DNA of 64,000 nt from Thermodesulfobacteriales bacterium (GTDB lineage: Bacteria > Desulfobacterota > Thermodesulfobacteria > Thermodesulfobacteriales > Thermodesulfatatoraceae), in assembly GCA_026988575.1 (NCBI GenBank), contig JALSKZ010000053.1, positions 1 through 64,000 of the forward strand, given 5' to 3'. Numbering within the stretch: position 1 is the first letter of the stretch; each line of letters starts with the position of its first letter. Below the pieces are notes generated by a model. That model searched no databases and was not told where the DNA came from. It saw only the letters and a program-made list of their open reading frames with translations. Both the position numbers and the translations under genes were made by a program. Below are positions 14,033-25,775 of this stretch, one piece after another.

Positions 14033-14608
14033 ATGCGTTTTGTAAAGACTTTTTGTATTTTAATAGGCTTGATATTCGCTTGGAGCGCTACGGTTTGGGG
14101 TAAAAGTATAAATAACAATATTCAGTGTCAAAGATACTATAAACTTATGACCTACCATAAACAACAATACCAGTATCATAGGCTGCTATATCGAAAGTAT
14201 AGACGTCTATATCGAAGAGCACGTTTGCGCCAGAGGTATTGTTTGCGAAATTTTGCCTACCGGAATTTAAACTATAACTATACAACAGGATTTGCATATC
14301 CAAATAATATGGTGCCAAACGTTATGCAAAATAGGTATAGTTATAGAAGACCTCCTCTATATTATAACAATAGTTACTACTATAAAAATCAGGCCAATCG
14401 ATATAGGAATAGATTTTATTCCAATCAAAATAGATATAATAGATATTTTTATGCCCCAAATACTTTGGGACGGCCAATAAGGCCTAATACAAATATACCA
14501 CGTCAAGGGCGTTATACTTGGAGCCAAAGACCTAACCAAACAGGAATTCAACAAGCTCCTAGCCCAAAAAATAACGGGGCTCAAGAATATTTTGATTTAC
14601 CCAGATAA
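14033..14608 (+). CDS. Secreted Tyr/Arg/Asn-rich low-complexity protein
   Basis: The 191-residue protein has a signal peptide (FCILIGLIFAWSATVWG) and an AAAGGAGG site. The mature part is dominated by Tyr, Arg and Asn: LLYRKYRRLYRRARLRQR, then many YxN and NRY units, then a Pro/Asn-rich tail ending EYFDLPR. Three Cys occur in total. It is basic and likely disordered outside the cell. No family is recognised. It may coat the surface, bind polyanions or form crosslinks; these are guesses. It sits between the two OB-like exported proteins. Confidence 0.65.
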   Translation: MRFVKTFCILIGLIFAWSATVWGKSINNNIQCQRYYKLMTYHKQQYQYHRLLYRKYRRLYRRARLRQRYCLRNFAYRNLNYNYTTGFAYPNNMVPNVMQNRYSYRRPPLYYNNSYYYKNQANRYRNRFYSNQNRYNRYFYAPNTLGRPIRPNTNIPRQGRYTWSQRPNQTGIQQAPSPKNNGAQEYFDLPR

Positions 14609-15111: not shown

Positions 15112-15681
15112 ATGCGTACCTGGGTAAGTATGTTTTTATTTGCGTCGCTTCTGGTCCTTTTCGTAACGGGAATAGTACTCTATATCGAACCACCAGGGAG
15201 AATCGCTTACTGGACTAATTGGCATTTGCTTGGTCTTGATAAACACCAGTGGGACGCTCTACACACGATCTTTGGTTTTTTGTTCCTGATATTTTCCATA
15301 TGGCACCTCTTTTTGAACTGGCGCCCCCTTTCTTGGGGTTTAAAAAAACCCGTGGTATTGGGTGTAGTAATCTTTATAAGCCTATTTGTTTTTTGGGGTA
15401 CAGTGACCTACCGGGTTCCTTTTCGTTACGTTATAGACTGGCAACAAATCATCAAGAATAGTTGGCCCGTACCCCCTCCTCCTATACCCCATGCTGAGGC
15501 CATGCCTTTGGGGAGGGTGGCCCGCCTGTTGGGCCTCCATCCTCAAGAAGCTCTTAAGATCTTGCGACAAGCAAACATTAAGGTATCTTCGCCCCAAGAA
15601 ACTATGGGCCAGATAGCCAAACAAAACGGAAAAACACCCAACGAGGTGTTCGAAATTCTCAGAAAACAGAAAAATAATTGA
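15112..15681 (+). CDS. DUF4405 membrane protein
   Basis: The 189-residue protein has three or four TM helices in residues 1-115. His in WHLLGLDKHQWDALHTIFG and IWHLFLNWRP resemble the heme-binding positions of the cytochrome b561/DUF4405 fold. A soluble C-terminal part (GRVARLLGLHPQEALKILRQ...NEVFEILRKQ) looks helical and repeats a short L-x-E-x-x-x-x-L pattern. Such proteins may pass electrons or sense redox state in the membrane. An AGGAGAAGG site precedes it. The kinase gene that follows overlaps it by four bases. Confidence 0.75.
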   Translation: MRTWVSMFLFASLLVLFVTGIVLYIEPPGRIAYWTNWHLLGLDKHQWDALHTIFGFLFLIFSIWHLFLNWRPLSWGLKKPVVLGVVIFISLFVFWGTVTYRVPFRYVIDWQQIIKNSWPVPPPPIPHAEAMPLGRVARLLGLHPQEALKILRQANIKVSSPQETMGQIAKQNGKTPNEVFEILRKQKNN

Positions 15682-16937
15682 GACCTAAATGGCGCGGTTA
15701 TAAACACAGATTTCTTATTACCGGGGCCTTAGTTGTATTATTTTTTGCCTCTATAGGAGAGCTATTTATACTTTACCGGGTACTAAATTTACACGAATAT
15801 CTTGACGCTTTATCTAGCCTAAATTTTATTCAAAACAGAATAGCTGGGCACTTAGAAATACTCAAATTTATCCCAAAACCTCCTGATTATCTCCAAAATT
15901 TAGCTTGGTTGACTGACGAACTACAAGGGCAACCATTTCTAATAGGCGTAATTGTAATCGAAAAAAATAAAGTGTTATTGAATACCTTTCCAGAAGGTAT
16001 TTCGCCTAATAGTAAGATATTGCAAAGTTGTTGGAAGGGTGTAGAAAATGGTAATGTGTTCTATTTGTGTAGGGAGACAACGCCTTTACCTAATAAGAAT
16101 TTATTTATATTAATTGGGCTAGATACTTCTATAAAACAACATATATGGAGGCAAGGGTTATTTTTATGTCTATTAATATTTATGATGTCCAGTATATTGC
16201 TTCTTATATTAGGAATCTATATAGATAGGTTAATTATAAAAGAAAAAGAATTGACAAATAAATTAGAAGCATCAGAACGATTGGCAACTATGGGGAAGCT
16301 TTCTGCTATGGTAGCGCACGAAATCAGAAATCCACTAAATGCTCTTACGATGGGTTTGCAGTATATGCAAGCGGTGGGAGAGTTAAATAATGATATAATC
16401 AAAAATATACAAACAGAATTAAGTCGTCTTACAGAGCTAACTGACGAATTGCTTTCTTTTTCTCATGGGTTAAAATTGAATCCCTGTCCGGTTGAGATAA
16501 GTGAGTTGTTAACGGAAATAAAAAATCGTTTAGTGCCAAAGGCAATAAGAAGGGGGATAAATGTCCATATAGATATAGCGATTGATGAAGAATTTAAAAT
16601 AAATGTAGATAGACGTTGGTTTTTAAGGGCTATAGAAAATATTATACGCAATGCTATTGAAGCAATAGGTAGTAACGGACATATATGGATAAGGGTAAAA
16701 AGAGTGTCGCAAAAAATTGTTTTTGAAATAGAAGACGATGGGCCAGGTATAAATCCTGCACACCAAAAAAAGATATTTGAACCATTTTTTTCTACAAAAA
16801 AAGAAGGTTTTGGTATAGGTCTTTTTATAGTAAAACAAGTAATAGAAGCTCATGGAGGAGAAATTAAAGTAAAAAGCGCAATCAATAAAGGAAGTACATT
16901 TATTATAAGTTTACCCCAACAGGGGCCAACAACGTAA
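15678..16937 (+). CDS. Membrane sensor histidine kinase
   Basis: The 419-residue kinase starts at a TTG in the TTGA overlap with the DUF4405 gene. TM1 is about residues 14-35 and TM2 about 157-182, framing a periplasmic sensor of about 120 residues. Phospho-His lies in MVAHEIRNPLNALTM. ATPase boxes are NIIRNAIEAIG, EDDGPGINP and GFGIGLFIVKQVIEAHGG, as in NtrB-type kinases that pair with sigma-54 activators. No regulator is in this operon. The activator at 24384 is one possible partner (inference). Confidence 0.85.
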   Translation: MRPKWRGYKHRFLITGALVVLFFASIGELFILYRVLNLHEYLDALSSLNFIQNRIAGHLEILKFIPKPPDYLQNLAWLTDELQGQPFLIGVIVIEKNKVLLNTFPEGISPNSKILQSCWKGVENGNVFYLCRETTPLPNKNLFILIGLDTSIKQHIWRQGLFLCLLIFMMSSILLLILGIYIDRLIIKEKELTNKLEASERLATMGKLSAMVAHEIRNPLNALTMGLQYMQAVGELNNDIIKNIQTELSRLTELTDELLSFSHGLKLNPCPVEISELLTEIKNRLVPKAIRRGINVHIDIAIDEEFKINVDRRWFLRAIENIIRNAIEAIGSNGHIWIRVKRVSQKIVFEIEDDGPGINPAHQKKIFEPFFSTKKEGFGIGLFIVKQVIEAHGGEIKVKSAINKGSTFIISLPQQGPTT

Positions 16938-17086: not shown

Positions 17087-17108
17087 GGCGGGCTAGCGCC
17101 CGCCTTTT
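17087..17108 (+). terminator. Terminator after the kinase operon
   Basis: GGCGGGC, loop TAGC, GCCCGCC is a perfect seven-base stem followed by TTTT. It lies at the end of the plus-strand operon 13505-16937 and just touches the stop of the convergent TPR gene. Confidence 0.65.
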
Positions 17109-17727
17109 ATAGCTTCTGCAACATTCCACGTGCTACAACATTTTCGGGATCTAATAAAAGGACTTTTTTAAAAACATTACGTGCCTGTTCGTTTTTTCCT
17201 TGCCACCATAAATCACGCCCTAATTCAACCCAAAACAATACACTGCTAGGATATCTTAATAGCATTTTACGCATTACTTTCTCGGCAAGATTGGCCTTGT
17301 TTTGTAACCTCAAAGAGATTGCTAACCGCAAATTGCCATAATAATTATAAGGGTCCATACTGATTAGTCTATTCATGAGACTTTCAACCCGTGACCATCT
17401 TTTTTGAGCCATTAATGGTAGAGAAAGTCCCAATAATGCTTCGAATGAATTGGGACGTAGCTGTAAAGCTTTTTCATAATATGAAATACTATTAGCATAT
17501 TTGCCATAAAGATAGTATAACCACCCTAGTCGAAGATTTACTAAATAAAATTTGGGATATTCTTTTTGGATAGGTAATAAACAACGAATAGCGTCTTTAT
17601 AGGCCCCCATCTTTTCATAACGATAAGAATCTTTAAAAGATTGCCCAATATTAGCAGAAAAGGAGTTTTTCGGTACAAATACAACCCATACCAAAACGAA
17701 AAGTATAGAAATAATCTTTAAACGCAT
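17107..17727 (-). CDS. Exported TPR-repeat protein
   Basis: The 206-residue protein has a signal peptide (IISILFVLVWVVFVPKNSFS) and then about five TPR units: YRYEKMGAYKDAIRCLLPI, RLGWLYYLYGKYANSISYYEKAL, PLMAQKRWSRVESLMNRL, and VELGRDLWWQGKNEQARNVF. TPRs bind proteins. It is the last gene of the PqqD operon, 19 bases after the barrel protein gene, and could hold envelope partners together. Confidence 0.75.
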   Translation of the reverse strand: MRLKIISILFVLVWVVFVPKNSFSANIGQSFKDSYRYEKMGAYKDAIRCLLPIQKEYPKFYLVNLRLGWLYYLYGKYANSISYYEKALQLRPNSFEALLGLSLPLMAQKRWSRVESLMNRLISMDPYNYYGNLRLAISLRLQNKANLAEKVMRKMLLRYPSSVLFWVELGRDLWWQGKNEQARNVFKKVLLLDPENVVARGMLQKL

Positions 17728-17746: not shown

Positions 17747-18655
17747 CTAAAATGAGCCGCCAATACTAATAGTAAATATAGACTGAGAAGCTTTGTCATT
17801 ATATTCTACGTGTTCTAGCCATTGTTGATTAATGTCAAAAGAAGCTCTAAGGTTGTCTGTAATCTTATATCCTAGTTCAAATTCTAAGCCTCCAAGATAT
17901 TTATCTGCCAAATTATATACAACAAAACTTTCATTTTTTACAGCAAAAATTTGTTGTCCAAGCCAGCCAGAAAGCATAAAATCTAAACGTCCTATATAGG
18001 TGCTAACCATTTGCTCTAAAGAATAGCAGTTTTTTATGGAAGAGCCTATAACTTTATCAGCATGTATATAATAAAATCTCGTTTCACCATATATGCGTTT
18101 CTCTAAAATGTTAAAATAGAAACCAATATGAGGACGGACCTGAAAGACATTTATTTTTAGCGGACTATTGTCATATCTAGAGTAGGCAAATTCTAGGCCA
18201 GCATTCCATAAATAAGGAACATAATAACTTCCCTGAAAGTAGAAAATTTTTCCCTGGTCTGTTAATTCGTCATCGCTATTTATGTAGTGAAAACCGATTT
18301 TAAAAATATGATTAGATAGTATTTGATTTATATTTGTATAAACAAAGTTAAAGTCTGTTTGATCTATATCGGAAACAGATTGCTGCAATAACACAACGCG
18401 TTTCTTTTTTATTTGCGTTAGAGTTCCCTCGTTTTTATAATTGACATGCGTTTGAGATAAACCAAATTCTAATGAATGATGATAATTATCTTTAAAGGCC
18501 AAGTATCCCGTTAGGGCCCAACCGTTGTCTTTCACTTTTGAATTTTGAAAATCCATATAAGTGGCATATAAATTAGAATAAGCATTCCATTCTGCTGCTT
18601 GCACAAGGCCACTAATTAGAAAAAAGAAAAGTAAGGGAATTAATAGCTTTTTCAT
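17747..18655 (-). CDS. Predicted outer-membrane beta-barrel protein
   Basis: The 302-residue protein has a signal peptide ending GLVQAAEW. The rest is alternating strands with aromatic girdle residues (YSNLYATYMDF, FYFQGSYYVPYLWNAGLEF, RASFDINQQWLE) and ends IFTISIGGSF with C-terminal Phe, as required for BAM insertion. No domain family is recognised. Its start overlaps the urea transporter/M23 gene by four bases. It may be the outer-membrane part of this operon's system. Confidence 0.7.
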   Translation of the reverse strand: MKKLLIPLLFFFLISGLVQAAEWNAYSNLYATYMDFQNSKVKDNGWALTGYLAFKDNYHHSLEFGLSQTHVNYKNEGTLTQIKKKRVVLLQQSVSDIDQTDFNFVYTNINQILSNHIFKIGFHYINSDDELTDQGKIFYFQGSYYVPYLWNAGLEFAYSRYDNSPLKINVFQVRPHIGFYFNILEKRIYGETRFYYIHADKVIGSSIKNCYSLEQMVSTYIGRLDFMLSGWLGQQIFAVKNESFVVYNLADKYLGGLEFELGYKITDNLRASFDINQQWLEHVEYNDKASQSIFTISIGGSF

Positions 18656-20769
18656 GATACCCTCCTTAAATAAATTTTTTGGCCATTTCTGCTACAATAA
18701 ACTTCATTAATAAATTTTTTGACTGGATCAAGCACTATTCTAGTTTCGATGAGGATGTCTCCTTGTCTTATTTGTCCTTTTATCTCGTTTGGTCCTACAA
18801 ACCAATAGTTTCCTTTGATTAAGGCCCAATTATGTTTGAAAGAAGCCAAGAAGATATAAAGGGCCCTTTTAAAGGGGCCATAAAACGCCTCTAAGGGGAG
18901 AAAATCTTCCCAATAAAGGCCTTTTTGATATACAAGGGGCATACGCGGAAGGGCAAGAAACAGGGCCTTTAACCATATAGCGCCTCCATCGTGACGCAAA
19001 AAATAAAAAGTACCTTCAAACTTGCTAAAATAAAGGGCATTATCAGCCGAAGAAAGATAATAACTGCCGTCAGGAGCCATTTTTACCTTTAAAGAATGTT
19101 CCCTCTTGGCCTTTCCGTCTATCTCTACTAGAAAGACCATCTCTTGATCTAAGGTCAAAGACATAGTGCTTTCTAAAGCTTTTTCGGGATAAAGGGCCTG
19201 CACAACGTCTTCTTCTTGTGGTACGTCGTTGGCGTGATAGACGAGTCTTCCTTCTCCATGTACAGCATAATGAACAAAACTAAACGGTTGGGTGGGAGCT
19301 CCTAGTTCAGGGGTTAATTGGATCTGCACGTGAAGATGTGGTTGCGGAGAATATCCAGAATTTCCACAAAGACCTATTAGTTGACCTTGTTCTACCCACT
19401 GTCCTGTTTTTACCTTGATAGATCCCCTTTGGAAATGGGCCAACAGGACGTAGAATCCTCGCTCATCGTAAATTAATACATAATTGCCCCAATTTTGGGT
19501 TTCGTTTACTGTACCGGGCGTATTGTCTGGTACATCATTAACTAAACTAACTACTCGACCACGTACTGGAGAAAGTATAGGCTTACCAAAGCAATAATAA
19601 TCTTCTAATTGAAGACCTTCTCCAGTATAAGTCTTTTTATGTTTATCTTTAATTACAAAATCTACAGCATAACGCCATATGCCTTGATGAGTCCACTGGC
19701 CATCAAAACCTTGCCAAACTGTCCAAATACCGGCAAAAGGTAGAGTTAATGTCCGATATGTACCTTTAAAACGTGCCTGATAGGAGAGGTAATAATCTAA
19801 AGTCCTTTCGGGACTTCCACGATAATAAGTAGTAAGAAAAGAATAGCCAGCCAGCCCTAAAGCATAAATCAAAGAAAGAACTACTAAATTAAAAGGAAGT
19901 GTAAAGGTGGGAATACCATAGTGGGCCCAGAAAAACGAAGCTGCGTCTAGTAAAAAAGGAGAAATGGCTACGGAAATGGCCGCCAAAAGATAACTGCGTG
20001 GCCCAGGAATAAGAAAAACCCCTCCAATAGCCATGGCAATAAGACTAAAATTAAAGGCCCCTAGATTGCTGGCTGCTTGATAAATAGAACCTTCCATACA
20101 GGTTAAGATAGCTATGCCTAAAAAATATCCACATACTGCTAACAAAAATAAGATGCGCGAAGCTAAAAAGATAACGATTAAAAAGATGAGCCCACCCAAA
20201 AAATGGGGGCAAAATAAAAGGGCACCCAAAGAGCGAGTTAATCCTAAAAGCCAGATAGGTAAATGGAGTTCTAAATTGCTTAAATTAATCCAAGATGGAT
20301 AATATTCGCTTACCAATAGATTGGAATATTTGTAAGCAGCCAAATAAAGTACAGTGCTGACTAAAACAAAAGGAATGTTGATAACGGGAAGTTTGAAAAA
20401 TTGATAGAAAATATTTGATAAAGAAAAAGTGACTATAAAAGTAAAGATACCAGCTGCTACTATTAAAAAAGAAGTAAATAAGGTCAATTTAAAAATATAG
20501 CCTATAGAAAGGCCTACTAGAAGGGGGTTATAAGTATAAAATCCTGATCCATAAAAAGTCTTTTGGAGATTCAAAAAACGTGCAAATTCATAGGCAGAAA
20601 GTACACATAGAAGACCAGCAAAGCCCACGTTGGGGTTTAAAAAAGTGGCAAGTAAAAGGAAAGAACCAAGCCAGAGATTTTCAAAAAAGAAAATTTCAGA
20701 ATAGCTATTTACAATGGTACGTAAATAACCCCGAGCCTTCTCAAGGATATGGGTCATAGTATTAACCAC
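18652..20769 (-). CDS. Urea-transporter-family membrane domain fused to an M23 metallopeptidase
   Basis: The 705-residue protein has two domains. Residues about 30-315 are polytopic and carry both halves of the urea transporter pattern: FYTYNPLLVGLSIG (77-90) and LGAFNFSLIAMAIGGVF (236-252). Residues about 355-500 are an M23/LytM peptidase with likely zinc ligands H361, D370 and H480 (HLHVQ) plus H445. The last 200 residues are beta-rich and of unknown type. The peptidase would sit in the periplasm. Fusions of this kind exist in some delta-type bacteria, but I know of no characterised one. True urea transport is doubtful; no urease is in the window. Eight bases separate it from the PLP enzyme. 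Confidence 0.8.
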   Translation of the reverse strand: MVNTMTHILEKARGYLRTIVNSYSEIFFFENLWLGSFLLLATFLNPNVGFAGLLCVLSAYEFARFLNLQKTFYGSGFYTYNPLLVGLSIGYIFKLTLFTSFLIVAAGIFTFIVTFSLSNIFYQFFKLPVINIPFVLVSTVLYLAAYKYSNLLVSEYYPSWINLSNLELHLPIWLLGLTRSLGALLFCPHFLGGLIFLIVIFLASRILFLLAVCGYFLGIAILTCMEGSIYQAASNLGAFNFSLIAMAIGGVFLIPGPRSYLLAAISVAISPFLLDAASFFWAHYGIPTFTLPFNLVVLSLIYALGLAGYSFLTTYYRGSPERTLDYYLSYQARFKGTYRTLTLPFAGIWTVWQGFDGQWTHQGIWRYAVDFVIKDKHKKTYTGEGLQLEDYYCFGKPILSPVRGRVVSLVNDVPDNTPGTVNETQNWGNYVLIYDERGFYVLLAHFQRGSIKVKTGQWVEQGQLIGLCGNSGYSPQPHLHVQIQLTPELGAPTQPFSFVHYAVHGEGRLVYHANDVPQEEDVVQALYPEKALESTMSLTLDQEMVFLVEIDGKAKREHSLKVKMAPDGSYYLSSADNALYFSKFEGTFYFLRHDGGAIWLKALFLALPRMPLVYQKGLYWEDFLPLEAFYGPFKRALYIFLASFKHNWALIKGNYWFVGPNEIKGQIRQGDILIETRIVLDPVKKFINEVYCSRNGQKIYLRRVS

Positions 20770-20777
20770 AAAAGGGT

Positions 20778-22121
20778 CTATAATTTTAGGCGTTCAGGGA
20801 GCCTCTCTCGGGCCAAGATATCTTCTAAATTTTCTGCTTCGCGAATTAATTCTACTTGCCCGTTAGGATCTATAAGCACTACAGCAGGACGATATCGTAT
20901 GAACTGCATCCACTGGGTGACGTTATAAGCACCTACAGGCGAAAATATTAGTCTTGCTCCTCTGGGCAGAGGGGGGAGTTGTACCTGATCGGCCACTACG
21001 TCTATATTCATACACAAAGGACCATACAAGATACAAGGTTCTGCTGGCCCAGGGACATCTTCTTCAAGCTCTACGCGAAAATTATACCAAAAAGCAGTAA
21101 AGAGGATATTCACTCCGGCATCAAGCACATAAGAACGCGTACCATCAGGAAGACGTTTGCTGGCTTGGACGGTGGTAATGAGGAAACCTGCTTCATCTAC
21201 AATAGCCCGTCCGGTCTCCAATATCAGTTTGGGAAAGTCATTAGGCCGTAATTTGGAAAGCAACGTGTCACAGATGGCCTCGGCGAAGTCTTCTAGGGGC
21301 GGAACGGCAATCTCTGGGGGAAGATATATGCCCTTTAAACGGTTACGAGAGGGAAAACCTCCGCCTAGATCCAGATACTCAATTTGGAGGTCAAAGGCTT
21401 CTTGAAGCTGGTAGGCAAAATCGACCATTTTCTCTACAGCCTTGGCGTAGGCCCTAGGCTCCAATAGGAAAGTACCTAAATGACAATGAAGCCCGCACAA
21501 AATAAGCTTCTCTCCAGATACTAAACGTTTGGCGGCATCAAAGGCCTGCCCTGATTCTAGATTAAAGCCAAAGCGGGTCCATTGAGGACTGATCCCGGTA
21601 TCCATATTGAGACGAATACCCACCTTAATGGGCCGTCCCAACTCTTCAGCCACCTCTTCCAGGTCATATATTTCATCAAAATGGTCTATATTTATCAAGG
21701 CTCCTTCTTCGGCAGCCCTTTTAAGGGCCGAAAGGGGTTTATAGGGCCCGTTAAATATGATCTCTTCTCCCTTTACCCCTAAGCGCCGCGCCTTTTCATA
21801 CTCAAATTCCGAAACTACTTCGGCGGTTTCTCCTTCCTGATGAAGGATAGCACAAATAGCGTCTAAATAATTTGTTTTGTAAGACCAGGAAAATTGAACG
21901 TTTGGATAACGGGTAGAAAAGAGTTGATAGAGCTGTCGATATTTTTCTCGCAACCTCCTTTCAGAAAAGACAAAGAGAGGGGAACCGAAACGGGTAACCA
22001 AATCAGAAACAGGTACCCCGTCTATTTCAGGTCTTATATGGCGACCATAAAGAGAACCAAATTTATTACTAAGACCAATTTGAACTTTTCTAATAACAGG
22101 CTTTTCGTATGGAACCTTCAC
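20778..22121 (-). CDS. PLP-dependent amino-acid decarboxylase, LysA/ODC-like (fold type III)
   Basis: The 447-residue enzyme has the alanine-racemase-like barrel and the decarboxylase C-terminal domain. PLP would bind K82 in WSYKTNYL. Other motifs are GLHCHLGTF, DLGGGFPS, ETGRAIV and, for the second subunit, GPLCMNIDVV with Cys and Asp. It is related to diaminopimelate decarboxylase but lacks the dapF/dapA context; it sits between an ATP-grasp ligase and the UT-M23 fusion. It probably makes an amine, or an amino acid, used by this operon. The substrate is not predictable. Confidence 0.82.
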   Translation of the reverse strand: MKVPYEKPVIRKVQIGLSNKFGSLYGRHIRPEIDGVPVSDLVTRFGSPLFVFSERRLREKYRQLYQLFSTRYPNVQFSWSYKTNYLDAICAILHQEGETAEVVSEFEYEKARRLGVKGEEIIFNGPYKPLSALKRAAEEGALINIDHFDEIYDLEEVAEELGRPIKVGIRLNMDTGISPQWTRFGFNLESGQAFDAAKRLVSGEKLILCGLHCHLGTFLLEPRAYAKAVEKMVDFAYQLQEAFDLQIEYLDLGGGFPSRNRLKGIYLPPEIAVPPLEDFAEAICDTLLSKLRPNDFPKLILETGRAIVDEAGFLITTVQASKRLPDGTRSYVLDAGVNILFTAFWYNFRVELEEDVPGPAEPCILYGPLCMNIDVVADQVQLPPLPRGARLIFSPVGAYNVTQWMQFIRYRPAVVLIDPNGQVELIREAENLEDILARERLPERLKL

Positions 22122-22138: not shown

Positions 22139-23179
22139 CTAAGTTTCTCCTTTAGTAACTATACGCTGAAAAGTATCCATAGATGTTACCAAATCGTATG
22201 TATAACGGATATAAAGACGGCCTGCTTCATATTCTGCGTCTTTCTCCACCGGCAAGTCTAAAGCTGCTCGCACCAAACGGGCAGGCAAATTTATCCCCGC
22301 CCCGGTGGCAAAGTAGATCCAGGCGGGGAAACGAGGATTTATCTCTATGAGGTAAATCCGATCGTCGGTGGCGATACATTCCAGTTCAAAGGCCCCTCGC
22401 CACCCTATCTCTTCGAGGAACCTCTCTGTAGCCTGTATAAGGTCTTGGTTTTTTATGGTGACGCCGGTCCAGATCTTCCCTAAAGAGGTAATCCAAAGCT
22501 TTTTTATAGCCATTAGTCCCAAAGATCCGCCTTGGCCGTCGCCTACTCCTACCACGTTTACCTCTTCTCCGTGCACTACCTTTTGGACTAGAACCGGATA
22601 CCCCCACTCCTTTACGATTTTCTGAAAGGCCCCTTCGGCCTCGGCGAAGGTGTGCACCCGATAAGCCTTGTAAAACAGACCTTTTATCATGGCTGGGAAC
22701 CCAAGGCGATCTAAGGCCTTTATTAAATCTTGGTAAGAAGAGACGGCCTCTGTAGGTGGAAGAGATAGTCCCAGCCTGGGAGCAAGCTCTAAGAGACGCT
22801 GTTTAGAGCGCAACTCGAATTGTTCCCACGTGGGCAAAAAGGTCTTAATCCCCTGGGCCTCGAGTTGTTTCTCACCTTTGATAAATATGGGTAATTCAGC
22901 ATCTAGGGTAGGAACTACGACTTGGAGCCCGGTAACTTGCTGCACATAAGCTAGACGAGCTAAGTAGTCTTCTTCGGCGCTGGAAGGATAAGGCATAATG
23001 AAAGATCTATCTACCAGCCAATCGAGAAAGATCCCTGGTTCCATGGCATCGTAGGCAAGACCAATAGCTCTTACTTCAAGTTCGGGGTCTTCTTTTAGGC
23101 TCCTTATAACACCAAGCCCGGGGCCTGGATTGTCTACGGCATTTATCCCTGATACCGCTACCACCAGAGTTTCGGCCAT
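22139..23179 (-). CDS. ATP-grasp ligase, carbamoyl-phosphate-synthase-like
   Basis: The 346-residue protein has a pre-ATP-grasp domain (VVAVSGINAVDNPGPGLGVI) and an ATP-grasp domain: FPAMIKGLFYKAYRV, VLVQKVVHGEEVNVVG, GAFELECI and the metal site YLIEINPRFPAW. These enzymes join carboxylates to amines through acyl phosphates. Together with the PLP decarboxylase and PqqD-like protein it suggests amide-bond formation on a small molecule or peptide. It is 11 bases after the PqqD gene and 17 before the PLP gene. Confidence 0.8.
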   Translation of the reverse strand: MAETLVVAVSGINAVDNPGPGLGVIRSLKEDPELEVRAIGLAYDAMEPGIFLDWLVDRSFIMPYPSSAEEDYLARLAYVQQVTGLQVVVPTLDAELPIFIKGEKQLEAQGIKTFLPTWEQFELRSKQRLLELAPRLGLSLPPTEAVSSYQDLIKALDRLGFPAMIKGLFYKAYRVHTFAEAEGAFQKIVKEWGYPVLVQKVVHGEEVNVVGVGDGQGGSLGLMAIKKLWITSLGKIWTGVTIKNQDLIQATERFLEEIGWRGAFELECIATDDRIYLIEINPRFPAWIYFATGAGINLPARLVRAALDLPVEKDAEYEAGRLYIRYTYDLVTSMDTFQRIVTKGET

Positions 23180-23190
23180 GATTTTGCCCC

Positions 23191-23427
23191 TTATATAAGC
23201 TTGTAATTCCTTAACTGCTCTATAAAATCGGTCAGGTCCCTTTCGGCAGTCTCTGGATCTACTTCAAAATATTCGAGCATTTCCGCCAAAATCTCTTCTT
23301 CTTTCTTTCCCTTCTTTAAACGTTCCAGTATCCAGAGCCCGACCTGATTAGTGGTAAAACTATTGCCTGTTATCGGATCAAAGATAAAGCCTTCCTCGTT
23401 GATGGCTAAACGTGATAATCGATTCAT
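23191..23427 (-). CDS. PqqD-family (RRE-like) small protein
   Basis: The 78-residue protein starts at the ATG of MNRLSRLAINEEGF; a TTG two codons earlier is less likely since GAGGG fits the ATG. It has the PqqD pattern: FIFDPITGNSFTTNQVG, WILERLKKGKKEEEIL, FEVDPETAERDLTDFIEQL. PqqD proteins bind precursor peptides and present them to modifying enzymes. No precursor peptide gene was found beside it. It is the first gene of the operon. Confidence 0.75.
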   Translation of the reverse strand: MNRLSRLAINEEGFIFDPITGNSFTTNQVGLWILERLKKGKKEEEILAEMLEYFEVDPETAERDLTDFIEQLRNYKLI

Positions 23428-23464
23428 ACCCAAACCCTCTGGATCTAAAATGGTCGTTCCTTAC

Positions 23465-24383: not shown

Positions 24384-25775
24384 ATGAAACAGTCTAAAAA
24401 GGCCAAAATTTTGGTGGTAGAAGACGAAGATACCCAAAGGAATATCCTGGTAGATTTTTTGCGACACAAAGGTTTTACGCCTTTTGGTGCAGAAAGTGGG
24501 CAAGAGGCTTTGGCTCAGGCCCAACGTCATCATCCAGATCTGGTTCTCCTGGATTGGAAGCTGCCTGACACTGATGGCCTTTCGCTGTTACCCAAATTAA
24601 GAGAAGTCCTACCTCTGAGCCCCATCATAATTATCACGGCCTTTGCTACCGTAGAGCGTGCTGTAGAGGCCATGAAAAAGGGAGCTTATCATTATCTAAC
24701 TAAACCTCTTAATTTAGAAGAATTATTATTAGTTATCGAAAGGGCCCTGAGATCTTTAAAACTCGAACGCGAAGTAAAAGAGCTACGTAAGCAGTTAGAG
24801 AGTGTCGTTTCTTCCCCTCCGCCCGATATTGTTGCCGAAAGCCCGAAGATGAAAGAGCTGCTTACCTTGGCGAGTAAAGTTGCCAAGTCTCAGGCGACGG
24901 TTCTTATCTCTGGTGAGTCCGGTACAGGAAAAGAAGTATTGGCCAATCTTATTTATCGACTCAGTCCTCGGGCCCACAAGCCTTTTTTAAAAATAAACTG
25001 TGCTGCTATTCCTGAAGGGCTCTTGGAAAGTGAGCTTTTTGGTCACGAAAAAGGGGCCTTTACCGGGGCCGATCGTCTAAAACAAGGTCTTTTCGAGCTG
25101 GCCCATGGGGGTACTATCTTCCTTGACGAGATAGGCGATATGCCCTTTGCCCTGCAGGCCAAGTTGTTAAGGGTCTTACAGGAAGGGACATTTAGACGTG
25201 TCGGGGGTATCAAAGAGCTAAAAGTAGACGTGCGGGTAATTGCTGCTACCAATCAAGACCTGGAAAGTTTATGTAAAGACGGCAAGTTCCGTGAAGACCT
25301 CTTTTGGCGTCTCAATGTAGTAAATCTTCACCTTCCGCCCCTAAGAGAGCGACGAGAAGACATTATTCCCCTGGCCCGTTATTTTCTCAAGCGTTTTGTC
25401 CAAAAGCACGGTAAAGAAGATATCAAAGGTTTTAGCAAAGAGGCCTTAGAGGTATTACTTTCGTATCACTTTCCAGGAAACGTACGCGAGCTTGAAAATA
25501 TGATCGAACGGGCGGTTATTCTGGCTGAAGAAGACTATATAACCAAAGAGGATTTCCCGCCGGTAGCCCAGGGCCCGATGGCTCTTAAAGAAATGCCCGA
25601 CCTATTAGAGACTTTGCCTCTGCCGGAAGCGGTGGCCTTGCTGGAAAAAAATCGTATAATTGAAGCCTTAAAGCGTTCTAAATGGATTAAGGCGCGCGCG
25701 GCAGAACTGTTAGGGATCTCTGAGCGCGTATTACGCTATAAAATAGAAAAATATGGTATCTCTATGCCGGGTTAA
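24384..25775 (+). CDS. NtrC-family sigma-54-dependent response regulator
   Basis: The 463-residue regulator has a receiver domain (ILVVEDEDTQ; phospho-Asp57 in LVLLDWKLPD; K in LTKPLN), an AAA+ domain (GESGTGKE Walker A, ELFGHEKGAFTGADR with the GAFTGA loop for sigma-54, TIFLDEIGDMP) and a Fis-type helix-turn-helix (IIEALKRSKWIKARAAELLGI). It opens sigma-54 promoters after phosphorylation by a sensor kinase. No kinase is adjacent. Possible partners in the window are the kinases at 15678, 8410 and 41841. No SD is clear before the ATG. Confidence 0.93.
   Translation: MKQSKKAKILVVEDEDTQRNILVDFLRHKGFTPFGAESGQEALAQAQRHHPDLVLLDWKLPDTDGLSLLPKLREVLPLSPIIIITAFATVERAVEAMKKGAYHYLTKPLNLEELLLVIERALRSLKLEREVKELRKQLESVVSSPPPDIVAESPKMKELLTLASKVAKSQATVLISGESGTGKEVLANLIYRLSPRAHKPFLKINCAAIPEGLLESELFGHEKGAFTGADRLKQGLFELAHGGTIFLDEIGDMPFALQAKLLRVLQEGTFRRVGGIKELKVDVRVIAATNQDLESLCKDGKFREDLFWRLNVVNLHLPPLRERREDIIPLARYFLKRFVQKHGKEDIKGFSKEALEVLLSYHFPGNVRELENMIERAVILAEEDYITKEDFPPVAQGPMALKEMPDLLETLPLPEAVALLEKNRIIEALKRSKWIKARAAELLGISERVLRYKIEKYGISMPG

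Follow-up and report, generated by a model that had tools for sequence, protein, structure and literature searches.

A urea-transporter-fold protein fused to an M23 peptidase domain, a candidate inner-membrane component of a widespread metabolite cassette

We found that a urea-transporter (UT) domain and an M23 peptidase domain are joined in one chain of 705 aa, here called UT-M23, in the window, that is, the whole 64,000-nucleotide stretch of contig JALSKZ010000053.1 (Thermodesulfobacteriales bacterium) that was analysed. With a probability of roughly 0.5, UT-M23 serves as the inner-membrane component of a widespread metabolite cassette that has not been described before, and the conserved gene company points to a small-molecule pathway instead of urea uptake or a cell-wall enzyme. 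The best reading is that UT-M23 would be a channel bearing a metallo-amidase in the cytoplasm, as part of a pathway by which a small amine or amide metabolite is made and moved. UT channels are regarded as passive urea pores; here the UT fold is kept over a wide phylogenetic distance with an altered filter and with a zinc-enzyme domain, probably at the inner mouth, and a decarboxylase and a ligase regularly accompany it. If so, the UT fold would have a broader range of substrates, an M23 domain would have an intracellular job and an RRE would have an enzyme as its ligand. No description of this architecture or cassette was found in the non-subscription literature. The features of the cassette are as follows.

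17107..17727, minus strand: TPR protein with a hydrophobic, signal-like segment at its N-terminus (Pfam among the bases)
17747..18655, minus strand: secreted outer-membrane beta-barrel of 14 strands, OmpG/CymA-like
18652..20769, minus strand: UT-M23 fusion protein, 705 aa (ORF, Pfam, relatives, AlphaFold2)
18655..19152, minus strand: C-terminal region of UT-M23, residues 540-705, mostly beta (Pfam, relatives, AlphaFold2)
19255..19752, minus strand: M23/LytM-fold domain of UT-M23, residues ~340-505 (Pfam, conservation, model, Foldseek)
19861..20721, minus strand: UT domain of UT-M23, residues 17-303 (Pfam, alignment, Foldseek)
20778..22121, minus strand: LysA-like fold-III PLP decarboxylase, 447 aa (Pfam, NCBIfam)
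22092..22109, minus strand: YEKPVI tail, residues 5-10 of the LysA-like protein, a YxxP motif of the RRE-recognition type
22139..23179, minus strand: ATP-grasp ligase, 346 aa, PF15632 (Pfam)
23191..23433, minus strand: PqqD/RRE protein, 80 aa (Pfam, NCBIfam)

The UT-M23 reading frame begins with GTG and contains no internal stop. Pfam assigned the UT domain to PF03253 (E 2e-68, 231 bits against a gathering threshold of 25) and residues 395-484 to Peptidase_M23, PF01551 (E 3.1e-14, 53 bits against 28.7), while the C-terminal region 540-705, which is kept among the family members, gave zero Pfam matches. Both UT half-signatures are present, LPVINIPF at 127-134 and IPTFTLPF at 286-293, and the zinc ligands H361, D370 and H480 together with the catalytic H445 and H478 are invariant in 97 of 97 fetched relatives. 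The Asp ligand is spaced as H-x8-D rather than the usual H-x3-D, and the Pfam M23 match therefore begins beyond it. An AlphaFold2 model built with 67 relatives as input reached a mean pLDDT of 93.5 and a pTM of 0.89; Foldseek matched the UT part of the model to dvUT (3k3g; TM 0.82, by target length) and the M23 part to LytM domains (DipM, EnvC, lysostaphin). UT-M23 thus belongs to the UT fold family by its Pfam score and dvUT-like fold, and to the M23 peptidases by PF01551, the zinc ligands and the catalytic His residues. These results bear out the initial annotation, which had named a single-chain UT/M23 fusion, the two UT signature halves and the three M23 ligands at these positions.

The fusion is widely distributed. 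It occurs in 17 genomes of 60 relatives (44-100% identity), 16 relatives within the order carry it at 44-73% identity, and the closest record, from Thermodesulfatator autotrophicus, is 73% identical. From 143 candidate stretches in the species genomes scanned, 80 were retained, and all 80 are fused. These loci come from more than a dozen bacterial phyla, covering Thermodesulfobacteriota, Aquificota, Campylobacterota, Myxococcota, Verrucomicrobiota, Gemmatimonadota, Calditrichota, Ignavibacteriota, Bacteroidota, Thermotogota, Deferribacterota, Nitrospinota, Lentisphaerota, Omnitrophota and Gammaproteobacteria, with many of them being metagenome bins and some record titles wrong. In a sample of the window's phylum, five of the six UT-family genes that score above the cut-off belong to reading frames 690-765 aa long. 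That two separate genes had been joined by a sequencing or assembly error, the doubt attached to the original proposal, is ruled out by the 97 fused relatives, given that the 16 relatives and the 80 multi-phylum loci are fused in one open frame. An origin of UT-M23 from a mobile element or phage was also rejected, plasmid and phage collections giving no match that covers most of the protein. A UT-like stretch of 24% identity was seen in a Staphylococcus phage record (OR844994.1, 46585-47466), possibly host sequence in the record.

UT-M23 shares with the SLC14/UT channels (dvUT, 3K3F/3K3G) the fold, the two half repeats and the conserved Asn. The filter residues of dvUT include E187, F190, L84, L247, T130 and T294 (PMC4357013). 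In the alignment, E25 and A183 of UT-M23 stand at the positions of dvUT Q24 and E187. We take Q24 and F27 to be further filter residues of dvUT. At the Q24 position the family carries E, G, A or D and never Q (96 of 97 sequences have a residue there), and at the E187 position A, S, T, C or M and never E or Q (97 of 97); the T130 position is S or N and the T294 position T or A. The phenylalanine slots (F28/F186), L84 and probably the N-in/C-in topology are shared with dvUT; F28, L84 and F186 line the pore and are conserved along with N81 and N240, and about 30 UT-domain positions, these three pore-lining residues among them, are at least 97% conserved. The initial annotation had worried that the UT motifs might be lost in relatives: the fold motifs are retained, but the two polar residues of the urea filter are gone. 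A filter that is changed in a pore whose residues are kept suggests that the pore seems retained but retuned; it could also be closed. Judged by these filter residues, UT-M23 is not a urea channel.

Retention of the UT fold, the phenylalanine slots and the middle leucines would also suit a transporter of urea or a close analogue with an accessory domain, but we regard this as very unlikely, since Q24 and E187 are lost wherever a residue is present and UT-M23 scores 122.6 against the urea-transporter equivalog TIGR03441, below its cut-off of 274.6. The source genome yielded no urease alpha subunit, and no urease gene recurs among the conserved neighbours of the fusion; urea transport together with urease was therefore rejected, and UT-M23 differs from the SLC14/UT proteins both in lacking this link and in its C-terminal M23 domain. 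In contrast, L110, a gene from this phylum that encodes UT alone, is flanked on one side by urease accessory genes and on the other by an ammonium transporter, as named from the sequences around it, and keeps Q/Q and T/T.

The cassette runs in the order PqqD/RRE, ATP-grasp, LysA-like decarboxylase, UT-M23, 14-strand outer-membrane protein (OMP) and TPR protein, on a single strand with short gaps or frequent 4-base overlaps; in the window, the end of UT-M23 and the start of the OMP gene share the letters ATGA. Among the 61 loci with enough upstream sequence, the LysA-like gene was present in 51, the ATP-grasp gene in 49, the PqqD gene in 48 and all three in 48, and the TPR gene was found in 48 of 58 loci with enough downstream sequence. 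In the Verrucomicrobia-type loci L058, L064, L078, L083 and L084, a TPR stretch lies inside a longer ORF at the position of the outer-membrane gene. Across the 60 relatives, the ATP-grasp ortholog was found in 17/17 fusion genomes and in 1/43 fusion-free ones, where the match is merely 35-37% identical (Fisher 4.6e-14, a naive value that ignores shared ancestry). That fusion-free genome carries two such distant ATP-grasp relatives in tandem (G059:C301:1798-3884). Where the fusion gene is solitary, the ATP-grasp gene lies elsewhere in seven of eight genomes, and the LysA-like gene is present in six of the seven such genomes searched for it. In one genome (G010:C1:1278465-1279494) the ATP-grasp gene seems split in two, one piece having an in-frame stop, while the fusion gene is intact.

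Moreover, both enzymes have been exchanged in one clade. Six loci (L081, L087, L093, L096, L101 and L104), among them Shewanella and a Moraxellaceae bin, group as one clade with 100% support in which an Orn/Lys/Arg decarboxylase of a different fold (OKR_DC_1) and a PRK06524-like ATP-grasp protein replace the usual enzymes; five of these loci also encode an AAT/C45 hydrolase, and OMP and/or TPR genes lie alongside. Neither the usual ATP-grasp gene nor, with positive controls, the LysA-like gene was found in the five swap genomes searched. Replacement of two enzymes by unrelated ones of the same kind indicates that the membrane part needs amine formation and ATP-dependent ligation, and we infer that the cassette product is an amine or amide. 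The parallel swap restricts the chemistry to an amine together with ATP-dependent formation of an amide, and the question of the substrate thereby becomes testable.

The usual decarboxylase shares the fold-III PLP architecture and the PLP lysine (K82) with diaminopimelate and N-citrylornithine decarboxylases (LysA, FslC), but it falls below both NCBIfam cut-offs, scoring 219.9 against TIGR01048 (lysA) where 297.9 is needed, and by this score does not class as LysA. It also differs from them in carrying CMNxD in place of the CExxD substrate motif, with CMNID at least 95% conserved, and in its YxxP tail. The source genome encodes two other proteins above the lysA cut-off, and its own LysA has CETGD. 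In the N-terminal stretch read, neither of these two showed the YxxP motif, while YxxPx[I/L/V/M] stands near the start of every one of the 76 LysA-like proteins whose N-terminus could be read, followed by a conserved Gly in 75 of them; of the 1353 remaining ORFs in the loci, 5 have it.

PqqD proteins normally serve ribosomal peptides, and the best NCBIfam match of the cassette PqqD is a lasso-peptide PqqD model. YxxP is the recognition motif for lasso-peptide RREs, and the discrete RREs of lasso clusters share with the cassette protein the PqqD fold family and this motif (PMC12710340). YxxP, normally a RiPP leader signal for the RRE, here lies on a decarboxylase beside a stand-alone PqqD gene. 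The cassette therefore has the discrete RRE and YxxP motif by which lasso/RiPP clusters are recognised, and the ATP-grasp and metallopeptidase parts would also fit a lasso-like RiPP cluster with UT-M23 as its protease or exporter. We nevertheless find this reading quite improbable: the YxxP tail belongs to an enzyme instead of a precursor peptide, the OKR variant loci showed no PqqD match, and among the conserved neighbours (ORFs of at least 50 aa) there is neither a recurrent precursor peptide nor a lasso macrolactam cyclase, on which account a lasso peptide cluster was rejected. The simplest reading of these sequences is that PqqD docks the decarboxylase through the YxxP tail.

UT channels have both the N- and the C-terminus in the cytoplasm. 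No signal peptide or extra membrane helix was found ahead of the M23 domain, and the loops of the modelled helices carry a mean of 10.6 K+R on the face where the termini lie and 3.1 on the opposite face, which amounts to 0.100 and 0.030 per residue. This bias agreed with the positive-inside rule in 67/67 sequences and, with both termini omitted, in 59/67 (7 ties). The T5a-Pb loop has been placed in the periplasm (PMC4357013). From the UT topology and these counts, both termini are predicted to be inside, and the M23 domain should then be cytoplasmic. In comparison with M23/LytM peptidases (lysostaphin, DipM, EnvC, ShyA), UT-M23 shares the LytM fold and the zinc and catalytic residues, and differs in the H-x8-D spacing, the attached channel, the predicted cytoplasmic location and the extra conserved C-terminal beta region.

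The initial annotation had seen the UT scaffold as an anchor or channel for a cell-wall peptidase. Such a murein endopeptidase, held by the UT part at the outer face of the inner membrane, would agree with the full set of M23 zinc and catalytic residues, with the best-characterised M23/LytM relatives, which cut or regulate murein, and with the adjoining OMP and TPR genes; a periplasmic murein role is possible if the topology is reversed. We consider it unlikely, because the C-terminus is predicted to be cytoplasmic, the M23 part has no signal peptide of its own, the pore-lining residues are conserved and the gene is linked to biosynthetic enzymes. A murein operon was rejected because the conserved neighbours include no murein gene, and the cell-wall proposal found no support. 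A mere anchor is likewise unlikely, since some 30 highly conserved UT positions, pore lining included, exceed what an anchor needs. The nearest relatives without a UT domain in the plasmid collection also argue against a murein role, as they include haloarchaea, which are not known to possess murein. Haloarchaeal and Thermus plasmid M23 proteins are 36-47% identical to UT-M23 over the M23 region, and a Thermomicrobium plasmid protein is 30% identical over a longer stretch. These proteins share the CGNSG...PHLH block (in those read) and N-terminal hydrophobic segments, about three in the haloarchaeal and Thermus relatives; they differ in having no UT domain, and the cassette was not seen in the three loci examined (L121, L122 and L123, plasmids with an M23 domain of the UT-M23 subtype and N-terminal membrane segments).

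We know of little precedent for hydrolysis by an M23 domain in the cytoplasm. An M23 domain that lies in the cytoplasm but does not hydrolyse, and instead binds a ligand and so gates or regulates the pore, would agree with the existence of LytM regulators, with EnvC and DipM among the structural matches, and with the joining to a channel in every member. However, regulatory LytM domains usually lack the zinc triad and both catalytic His residues, which are invariant here in 97 sequences, and we hold this explanation to be improbable.

For the preferred reading, a channel with a cytoplasmic metallo-amidase, we propose the following mechanism. PqqD would hold the decarboxylase by its YxxP tail, the decarboxylase would form an amine, and the ATP-grasp enzyme would attach this amine via an amide bond, synthesis of the small product in the cytoplasm being favoured. 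The product or its precursor would then cross the UT-fold pore, whose filter is no longer of the urea-channel type, and subsequently the outer-membrane barrel, with the M23 domain, placed at the pore's cytoplasmic mouth, cleaving an amide upon entry or exit. As a whole, this envelope-spanning system of an RRE-YxxP-recruited PLP decarboxylase, an ATP-grasp conjugate, a repurposed UT pore whose M23 amidase couples transport to the conjugate's cleavage or release, and a dedicated porin with a TPR protein is a tentative proposal, which we think possible rather than probable.

We also observed other features around the cassette. In the window, a 191-aa secreted-looking protein with a very high content of Tyr, Arg and Asn and without a Pfam match is encoded at 14033-14608 on the plus strand. 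Genes for a DUF4405 protein, an AtoS/ZraS-like sensor kinase and a sigma-54 response regulator (15112-16937 and 24384-25775, both plus strand) flank the cassette, with DUF4405 and the sensor kinase on one side and the response regulator on the other. In L062 and L090, NtrC-like, HK and DUF4405-type genes lie immediately upstream of PqqD.
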